The notes beneath the pieces were generated by a model, which saw nothing but the letters and a program-made list of their open reading frames with translations, searched no databases and was not told the DNA's origin. Of a stretch of DNA of 32,321 bases, positions 24,811-32,109 are shown in pieces (position 1 is the first letter of the stretch; every line of letters begins with the position of its first letter). The stretch covers positions 1-32,321 of the forward strand of contig NZ_RQYL01000030.1 in assembly GCF_003860125.1 (NCBI RefSeq), in the 5' to 3' direction. Made by a program: the position numbers and the translations under genes. The stretch comes from Fretibacterium sp. OH1220_COT-178 (GTDB lineage Bacteria > Synergistota > Synergistia > Synergistales > Aminobacteriaceae).

Positions 24811-24912
24811 CGGCCCGCGGTTGTCTCTCCGAGGGGGGCCGCTCGCTTTAAAAGAGAGTTGAGCCACCGGCCGGTCCGCATAACCTCTGTTTCCTGAGGG
24901 GCTTAATGGGAT

Positions 24913-24951
24913 AATGAGAAGACCAAGGGGCATCCCCTTGGTCTTCTCATT
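24913..24951. terminator. Long perfect hairpin between convergent genes
   Basis: An 18-bp perfect stem (24913-24930 with 24934-24951) encloses a 3-nt loop. It lies between the end of the oxidoreductase operon and the convergent phosphatase gene, so it can serve both. There is no long T-run on either side. The rest of 24811-24976 holds no gene I can support. Confidence 0.7.
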
Positions 24952-24976
24952 TCGTTCATGAGTCCATGAGTCGAGT

Positions 24977-25993
24977 TCAATCAGGATAGTACTGGAGCGT
25001 CAGGTCTCGTTCCTTGCACCATTCCGTCCAGGTTTTTTCTTTGAAGTCAGTATCCTTGGCGTAATTGTAGAACTGTTGCAAGAAAATACGCCGCTCCACG
25101 GACGCTTTCATTCTGTAATGTTTTTTACCCGTAAGGGCCAATTCGGCACGTACATCTACGGGCCCTATGAGTCCTTGCCGAGCTGCAATATCGTCAAAAC
25201 TTGCCACTTTATAGCTCTTGTAAATGTCCGTCATCACCATAAAGTTTGTAGTGCGCCCTTCACCGGCGTAACAATGCATGAACAGCCACTCGTCGTCGGG
25301 GAGACCTGCCATGAAGGCTACAAACAGATCGACTTCGTGATCGTCGGGGCGAAAATGGTTGGTGTCCGCAAAACGCACATATTTAGCGCCTTTGCTTCTC
25401 ACAAATTCCCCCTCGCTCATGATTACTGGTTTCTTGTACTCCAGCATAGGGCTGTCGTAGTCCGCCCCCCAATTTTTGGTTTGATACATCTTGATGTGAT
25501 CCTGCTTTTTTAAGTCGTCAAGGAGTTTCGTCTCTATTTCGAGCACTTTTTCCGTAGGAATTCCTTCGTTGACGTAATTATTGGGTATCCAATACATAAA
25601 CACATTGCCGTCGATCAAACCATGTGTTTCACCACGCAGATCGAGCACGGTCAGCTTGTCTGGCGTTACGCCGACCTTTTCTTTGAGGGTGGCCAAAACC
25701 CAGTCAAATTGCTTTGCCGTAAAATCAGCTCCACCACTGGTGCGCAATGTGTCCATACCGGCCCGGCTTACCTCGGTCTTGTACCCCAGCTCTTTCAGTT
25801 TATCTAATTTTTCCGTTGGAAAGGGGTCTATCGACATTCGCCAGTTGGGGTATTTAAAATCTGCAGGCAGGTCTTCGTTGAGAAAGTCGACCTTCCAAAC
25901 CGGTGTTGGCTCGGCCGCATTCGACTGAGAGTATAGAAAGCCAAACAAAATGAAGGACGCCATCATCCAAAGTCCAAATACACGCCGCAACAT
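24977..25993 (-). CDS. Secreted PTP-like phosphatase (cysteine phytase family)
   Basis: The product resembles the PTP-like inositol polyphosphatases such as Selenomonas PhyA. The P-loop HCYAGEGRTT (His240, Cys241, Arg247) fits HCxxGxxR(T/S). It is flanked, as in PhyA, by LPDDEWLFM before and NFMVMTD after. LDLRGETHGLIDG (about 117-129) and the C-terminal KTWTEWC also align. The start MLRRVFGLWMMASFILFGFLY with SNAAEP is a signal peptide, so the protein is exported. Where PhyA has TDH with the general acid Asp, I read TNH (Asn212), with Asp210 two residues earlier. Base composition is far more AT-rich than the neighbours, suggesting transfer. AGGAGG and a promoter lie upstream. Substrate is unproven. 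Confidence 0.82.
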   Translation of the reverse strand: MLRRVFGLWMMASFILFGFLYSQSNAAEPTPVWKVDFLNEDLPADFKYPNWRMSIDPFPTEKLDKLKELGYKTEVSRAGMDTLRTSGGADFTAKQFDWVLATLKEKVGVTPDKLTVLDLRGETHGLIDGNVFMYWIPNNYVNEGIPTEKVLEIETKLLDDLKKQDHIKMYQTKNWGADYDSPMLEYKKPVIMSEGEFVRSKGAKYVRFADTNHFRPDDHEVDLFVAFMAGLPDDEWLFMHCYAGEGRTTNFMVMTDIYKSYKVASFDDIAARQGLIGPVDVRAELALTGKKHYRMKASVERRIFLQQFYNYAKDTDFKEKTWTEWCKERDLTLQYYPD

Positions 25994-26048
25994 AAAAACC
26001 TCCTTTATAAATTAAATGAAAAATTTATGCCGAGCTTTGCTGTCGTTC

Positions 26049-26077
26049 ACTTTATCAATATAAGTTTTTAATGTCAA
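26049..26077 (-). promoter_or_regulatory. Promoter of the PTP-like phosphatase gene
   Basis: On the minus strand a perfect TTGACA (26077-26072) and TAAAGT (26054-26049) are 17 nt apart. Transcription would start near 26042, giving a leader of about 50 nt that ends with AAAGGAGG before the ATG at 25993. Confidence 0.7.
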
Positions 26078-26306
26078 ATTTTATTGCGAGAAAGATCGAA
26101 TCTTTAGATGGGGTTTCAGATGAAATCTGTTTCTCTCCTTTTCCATCGAACATCGTTGGAGGTATCGTGAGGTCCTTGAAAATAAAAGACGCGTACTGCT
26201 GGGACGATAAGATGGCCTGTCTGTTTGTTAAAATTTAAGAAGCTGTGTTGCCTGTTTGTGCTTTTTCCGTTTTTTATCGCGTTGTCGAAAGGGGTCGGTG
26301 GGGAAC
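26078..26306. other. AT-rich gap upstream of the Nudix gene
   Basis: No gene is supported here. A small inverted repeat AAAGAT/ATCTTT (26091-26105) is present. I see no convincing plus-strand promoter, although one must exist nearby because the upstream gene is divergent. A+T stays high to about 26280, then drops sharply at the Nudix gene. Confidence 0.4.
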
Positions 26307-31101: not shown

Positions 31102-32109
31102 GTGGAGATGACCTTCAGGGATACGACACCGAAGGGTCGGGGGCGTACCCGCACGGACGGGAGCGCGGAGAAAGGGGATTCGGACCTCTTCTATTCTCCG
31201 CGTTCCGGGACCAGGGCGCAGATTCTCCGAGACATCGGCCGGGGGCGGGTCTGCCCTTTGGTCGACGTCCTCTTCAAGTTCCTGTTCGGGAGGCCGGACC
31301 GTTCGGAACTCTTTCTCGACCTGCTCAACGCCCTGGTGTTTCCGGACGGAGAGCGGGCGTTCTCGTCGGTCTCCTTCATCAACAACGAGCTGTCGCCCCT
31401 GCGCTCGTCCGGGAAGGGCAGCCGCCTCGACATCGCTGCGCGCCTGGACGGAGAGCTGGTCAATCTGGAGGTTCAGGTCCGGCCCGACCCGGACTACCTG
31501 AAGCGGACCCTTTATTACTGGTCTTTGCTGTACTCCGCGACCCTGGAGCGCGGGGCGGACTATACCGAAACGGTGCGGACGATTTCGTTGAACCTTCTGG
31601 ACTTCGAGCTCTTTCCGGAGGAGCGGGAGTGCCGCAACAGCTACTCCATCCGTAACGACGCGAGCGGCCGCCGACTGTGCGAAGACCTTCAGATCGTGTA
31701 TTTCGAGCTGCCGAAGGACAGGATGGAGAGGAGGGCCGGCCGGCGGCCCCGCAACAAGCTGGAGCGCTGGCTGGGATATCTTGACGGGATGCGGGGTGAC
31801 GAGATGGGCCGAATTGCGGAGGAGGAACCGAGGATCGGAGAGGCGCTGCTTCTGGAGCGCGAGTTTTTTCAGGACCGGGACCAGCGTTTGGCGTACATCG
31901 TGGACCTGATGAACCACTGGGACGAAGGCCGCTACAGGGAGAGACTCGAGGCGGCAGCTCTGGCGAAGGGAAGGGCCGAGGGCGAAGCGAAGGGAAGGGC
32001 CGATACCGCACGGCGGATGCTGTCGCATGGCCTGTCCCCGGAGCAGATTGCGGAGTATACGGGGCTGTCCCCGGACGAGATAGAGGCCCTGAGGAACGCT
32101 CGGCCCTAA
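31102..32109 (+). CDS. Rpn family PD-(D/E)XK nuclease (recombination-promoting nuclease / putative transposase)
   Basis: The 335-residue protein belongs to the Rpn/PDDEXK_2 group, nucleases linked to recombination and found in multiple mobile-like copies. The N-terminal nuclease core starts VCPLVDVLFKFLFGRPDRSELFLDLLNALV and the catalytic strands read SRLDIAARLDGELVNLEVQV, giving the Asp and Glu-x-Gln of the family. A helical middle follows. The C-terminal tail has KGRAEGEAKGRA, then MLSHGLSPEQIAEYTGLSPDEIEAL, a helix-turn-helix-like end seen in many members. GTG 31102 is 7 nt from GGAGG; ATG 31108 is the alternative. It is intact and is flanked by IS remnants, which supports mobility. Confidence 0.88.
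   Translation: MEMTFRDTTPKGRGRTRTDGSAEKGDSDLFYSPRSGTRAQILRDIGRGRVCPLVDVLFKFLFGRPDRSELFLDLLNALVFPDGERAFSSVSFINNELSPLRSSGKGSRLDIAARLDGELVNLEVQVRPDPDYLKRTLYYWSLLYSATLERGADYTETVRTISLNLLDFELFPEERECRNSYSIRNDASGRRLCEDLQIVYFELPKDRMERRAGRRPRNKLERWLGYLDGMRGDEMGRIAEEEPRIGEALLLEREFFQDRDQRLAYIVDLMNHWDEGRYRERLEAAALAKGRAEGEAKGRADTARRMLSHGLSPEQIAEYTGLSPDEIEALRNARP

Follow-up and report, generated by a model that had tools for sequence, protein, structure and literature searches.

The 32,321-nucleotide stretch of contig NZ_RQYL01000030.1 from Fretibacterium sp. OH1220_COT-178 (the window in the following) carries, between korC and a NUDIX gene, a gene encoding a variant of the protein tyrosine phosphatase-like (PTP-like) phytases, in which the aspartate of the general-acid loop is replaced by an asparagine (Asn212) and a glutamate (Glu245) occupies the fourth position after the P-loop cysteine (Cys+4). 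Our preferred reading, to which we assign a probability of roughly 0.35, is that the gene was laterally acquired and encodes an exported, Cys-dependent phosphatase from a small clade of PTP-like phytases that exchanged Asp for Asn and shifted its proton donor to Glu245. The coordinates of all features are collected in the table below.

To compare the catalytic motifs we aligned nine sequences, comprising the three members of the clade (the window protein, its counterpart in Fretibacterium fastidiosum and a protein from an Aeromonadales metagenome-assembled genome, MAG) and six sequences from five other proteins (L005 from another Synergistaceae genus, both repeats of PhyAmm, PhyAsr, 7k6y and Bd1204). 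These six are L005 and the PDB sequences for which an alignment was listed, and do not include the effector relatives XopH, HopD2 and a Legionella protein. The column of PhyAsr Asp223 contained Asn in all three clade members and Asp in all six others. HMMER and MAFFT agreed in placing Asn212 on PhyAsr Asp223 and Asp210 on PhyAsr Ala221, and because PDB chain 2b4p, a PhyAsr variant, carries TNH like the window protein, the register of Asn212 is beyond doubt. The Asp-His pair of the PTP-like phytase general-acid loop is accordingly represented by Asn212-His213, with the His invariant in all nine sequences. An original prediction made from the letters of the window had described this change from TDH to TNH correctly, and the altered catalysis that it proposed is supported, as far as the sequence goes, by the Asn in every clade member. 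Its hint that an Asp two residues earlier might stand in is not supported, since for Asp210, present in the window protein and F. fastidiosum, both the alignment register and the Thr that the Aeromonadales member has in its place argue against a role as the general acid.

The P-loop HCYAGEGRTT fits the pattern HCxxGxGR(T), and Cys241, Arg247 and Thr248 were conserved in 9/9 sequences. While the intact loop described in the original prediction holds for the Cys and Arg, the clade-specific residue at Cys+4 had not been remarked on. This position is Glu in all three clade members and Lys (L005), Met (PhyAmm repeat 1), Ala (repeat 2), Val (PhyAsr), Ala (7k6y) or Lys (Bd1204) elsewhere. All three clade members thus combine Asn212 with Glu245, whereas 0/6 of the remaining PTP-like phytase sequences do so. 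Only three columns that are invariant in the six others were altered and fixed in the clade, namely Gly88 for Ser, Asn212 for Asp and Phe238 for His. Four columns (159, 178, 245 and 338) hold an invariant acidic residue in the clade but lack one in all six others, and among these only Glu245 lies inside a catalytic motif. The proportions of nonsynonymous and synonymous differences between the window gene and the F. fastidiosum gene were 0.10 (pN) and 0.81 (pS), a pN/pS of about 0.12 that shows constraint and gives no exact ratio because synonymous divergence is saturated. The Cys and Arg are maintained under purifying selection.

According to the mechanism that we favor, Cys241 would attack the phosphate, Arg247 would bind it, and Glu245 would protonate the leaving group and then activate water, as does the P-loop Asp of the myotubularins and the bacterial atypical lipid phosphatases (ALPs). 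Both of these families, with the P-loops HCSDGWDR and HCXXGKDR, respectively, use a P-loop general acid and have no WPD-type Asp (PMC3091653). P-loop acids have also been proposed as the catalyst in Cdc25 (PMC4322731), a few PTPs have backup glutamates on other loops (PMC12848742), and in Bd1204 the Cys+4 side chain (Lys210) extends to the substrate site (PMC3981807). Among the basic residues of PhyAsr listed as binding inositol hexakisphosphate (InsP6) in PMC3981807, Lys301 is kept in the window protein, Lys189 and Lys299 are not, and Arg57 and Arg68 fall outside the aligned part. An acidic residue in the P-loop and the absence of some of these basic ones from the pocket suggest a substrate less phosphorylated than InsP6. 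It is possible, though doubtful, that the clade dropped the mobile-loop Asp and independently arrived at an arrangement of the myotubularin, ALP and Cdc25 type, with general acid-base catalysis by the Glu at a new position, Cys+4, and probably a changed substrate.

Several observations weigh against a proton donor at Glu245. The acids of myotubularins and ALPs, which are separate families, are located at Cys+5 and not at Cys+4. Cdc25 has its P-loop acids at Cys+1 and Cys+5. The pairing of Asn212 with Glu245 was seen in one clade and therefore represents one evolutionary event, and an AlphaFold2 model built from only three sequences reached a predicted local distance difference test score (pLDDT) of 36.8. 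The Aeromonadales copy (L004 5827-6938) is split across two overlapping frames and frameshifted in the MAG, which reflects either an assembly error or a pseudogene. Lastly, replacement of Asp by Asn at the equivalent position of Bd1204 (D177N) abolished activity, a result given as "data not shown" (PMC3981807), and an active enzyme with Asn at this position consequently needs another proton source.

The inactive Bd1204 D177N also favors a crippled enzyme or phosphate binder, which would be nature's counterpart of the Asp-to-Asn trapping mutants and would hold inositol phosphates or phosphoproteins but turn them over slowly, if at all, and the same is true for the identity of the residue with that in PhyAsr chain 2b4p and for the drop of 2 to 3 orders of magnitude typical of Asp-to-Asn PTPs (PMC12848742). 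We regard this as somewhat unlikely, since the nucleophilic Cys, the Arg, the Thr and the His have all been retained under purifying selection in two genera and, for a protein that only had to bind anions, the Glu that this clade carries in its P-loop would be an unnecessary burden. If the protein is an active phosphatase, it might dispense with a protein general acid and receive the proton from its substrate, either an inositol pyrophosphate or a compound with a good leaving group, with Glu245 merely shaping specificity. The conserved Cys and Arg agree with such a scheme, and a substrate-assisted proton relay on inositol pyrophosphates has been proposed for AtPFA-DSP1, which is without the WPD acid (PMC9038691). 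A Glu opposite a polyanionic substrate would be unfavorable, however, and with the InsP6-binding residues of PhyAsr kept only in part this explanation appears unlikely.

Recruitment of another acid in the same loop, be it Asp210 or His213, is more improbable still. The presence of Asp210 in both Fretibacterium proteins and the invariance of His213 speak for it, as does XopH, in which the WPD-loop His239 is required for activity on para-nitrophenyl phosphate and H239A retains residual InsP6 activity (PMC5735085), but the Aeromonadales member has lost Asp210 to Thr, and a His that is also found alongside Asp in other members constitutes no new takeover. There is very little to recommend a sequencing artefact or a recent loss in a decaying gene as the origin of Asn212, despite the frameshifted Aeromonadales copy, because TNH and GEGR are identical in three genomes from two phyla and the difference between pN and pS argues against decay. 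A relocated proton donor at Glu245 remains the reading that we tentatively prefer.

Lateral acquisition rather than inheritance of the gene is supported by its location and distribution. KorC was matched in 39/39 genomes, and 24 loci fetched from the 38 other genomes were examined besides the one in the window. In 16 of these 24 relatives korC was followed by a NUDIX gene in the same orientation, at an adjusted distance of ≤155 bp and without a phytase, while in the remaining eight no NUDIX gene was found within the available flank (just 286 bp in one case). The interval in the window measures 1,496 bp, and the phytase-like gene within it lies on the strand opposite to korC and NUDIX. PF14566 scored above its cut-off in three of 185 Synergistota genomes, those of the window organism, F. 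fastidiosum (G005) and G117. The G117 protein (L005 1267-2289) is an ordinary PTP-like phytase with QDH and HCQAGKGRTG that is about 25% identical to the window protein, and since it is both ordinary and distant, the clade is confined to 2/185 Synergistota genomes. Searching with the protein itself recovered it from 2/99 genomes, the window organism included. The F. fastidiosum copy is 83% identical and resides at an unlike location, preceded by a partly masked Rpn-type open reading frame (ORF) and followed by what we take to be the genes for ornithine carbamoyltransferase and carbamate kinase. The third member, 68% identical, is encoded on the Aeromonadales MAG contig (L004, genome G185) and was present in 1/56 genomes of its family and 1/394 of its order. 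The insertion between korC and NUDIX, the patchy presence, the unlike location in F. fastidiosum and the 68% identity to a protein from Aeromonadales all favor the acquisition that the original prediction had proposed. It had named two outcomes that would count against its reading, a phylogeny among vertically inherited relatives and an alignment of Asp210 exactly with the general-acid position, and neither was found. Examination of the insertion flanks for target-site duplications revealed none that were convincing. The window also contains an ORF (31102-32109) for an Rpn family recombination-promoting nuclease/putative transposase (TIGR01784), and the tail of the partly masked ORF just before the F. 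fastidiosum phytase gene (L003 4849-5922) is similar to it. This similarity might point to the involvement of such ORFs in acquiring the gene.

No further clade members were found in viral contigs and phages. Among plasmids 32 records matched, all with <35% identity among the matches listed. The Pseudomonadota sample yielded matches at E ≤0.001 in 30/398 cases, 13 of them above the cut-off, and the whole model was covered only in G185. Negativicutes and Clostridia were left out of the survey, a real gap that matters because the source of PhyAmm belongs there. A search of open-licence PMC papers did not find one on an Asn general acid in the PTP-like phytase family.

The best match of known structure was the tandem phytase PhyAmm of Mitsuokella multacida (PDB 3f41, E 9.9e-80), with the best agreement over the N-terminal repeat, which shares HFRPDD and HCYAG.GRTT with the window protein; the match corresponds to one repeat of a two-repeat enzyme. 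A FastTree phylogeny of the nine sequences likewise placed the clade nearest to PhyAmm repeat 1 (support 0.962). Selenomonas ruminantium PhyAsr (1u24) has the identical motif order but retains Asp223 and has Val at Cys+4, while Bdellovibrio Bd1204 (4nx8), of the same family and with a functional Cys+4 side chain, differs in that Asp177 is present and needed and Cys+4 is Lys rather than Glu (PMC3981807). The best NCBIfam model was that of XopH, the 1-phytase effector of Xanthomonas (NF041348, E 1e-45), with which the protein was compared by model only and which it matched at 156.7 bits against an equivalog cut-off of 500. Judged from its sequence the protein descends from PTP-like phytases and probably works in part as they do. 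Since its acid loop is without the Asp that defines the family, we file it as a variant clade beside the PTP-like phytases, neither a proven phytase nor an XopH equivalog. Its loop HCYAGEGR also differs from the HCXXGKDR of the ALPs. An inositol catabolism context was considered and rejected, with IolB as the sole enzyme examined. The only IolB-family match in the window organism's genome scored 71 bits, where the NCBIfam cut-off is 205, and the F. fastidiosum genome had none. The IolB-like protein (L068 7290-9434) adjoins genes for a nickel-dependent putative hexonate epimerase and a TRAP transporter, and these neighbors together with the low score provide no support for inositol catabolism.

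The description of the gene as an AT-rich island encoding an exported phytase-type phosphatase agreed with our analysis. Its GC content is 0.479 overall and 0.563 at third codon positions (GC3), compared with 0.651 ± 0.028 and 0.870 ± 0.035 (lowest GC3 0.818) in the 19 other ORFs of the window, and the 5' flank has a GC content of 0.375. The protein scored above the Pfam gathering cut-off for PF14566 PTPlike_phytase (E 3.7e-16, 60 bits against 27), and an apparent signal peptide would direct its export. For the strong promoter attributed to the gene there is a candidate site. The match is weak by itself, as the scan returned three sites where chance alone would give 1.4 ± 1.3, but it is located about 55 bp ahead of the ATG, with the AAAGGAGG ribosome site in between. 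The hairpin between korC and the phytase-like gene is probably a terminator.

Features of the phytase-like gene and its surroundings (window positions)
Feature	Position	Strand	Basis or remark
PTP-like phytase variant gene (P0001)	24977..25993	-	ORF call, ATG start, 338 aa
Apparent Sec signal peptide, residues 1-27	25913..25993	-	Hydrophobic core, then ...SQSNA-AEP; read by eye from the translation
General-acid loop D210-T-N212-H213	25355..25366	-	Asn212 codon AAC 25358-25360, at PhyAsr Asp223 position
Phe238 (His in the six other sequences; WLH..HC to WLF..HC)	25280..25282	-	Nine-sequence alignment
P-loop H240-C241-Y-A-G-E245-G-R247-T248	25250..25276	-	Glu245 codon GAA 25259-25261
Ribosome-binding-like AAAGGAGG	25999..26006	-	Read from the sequence
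Promoter-like site TTGACA-17-TAAAGT, sigma-70-like, extended -10 TG	26049..26077	-	10/12 matches
Perfect 18-bp hairpin, 3-nt loop, between korC and phytase-like gene	24913..24951		Single copy in the window
korC stop to NUDIX ATG, 1,496 bp, containing the inserted gene	24811..26306		Adjusted gap ≤155 bp in 16 relatives

In the laboratory, exchanging the general-acid Asp for Asn inactivates Bd1204, a family member that has been studied (PMC3981807); in this clade the same exchange is the conserved natural state and occurs beside a new acidic P-loop residue. The clade therefore offers a natural test case of whether such an enzyme can function with a relocated proton donor. If active, it would be a PTP-fold enzyme that shifted its proton donor while leaving the nucleophile unchanged, which a simple test of one residue could address; if inactive, it would be an exported, natural protein resembling a substrate trap. 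Either way, the automatic 'phytase' labels of its members should not be read as function.
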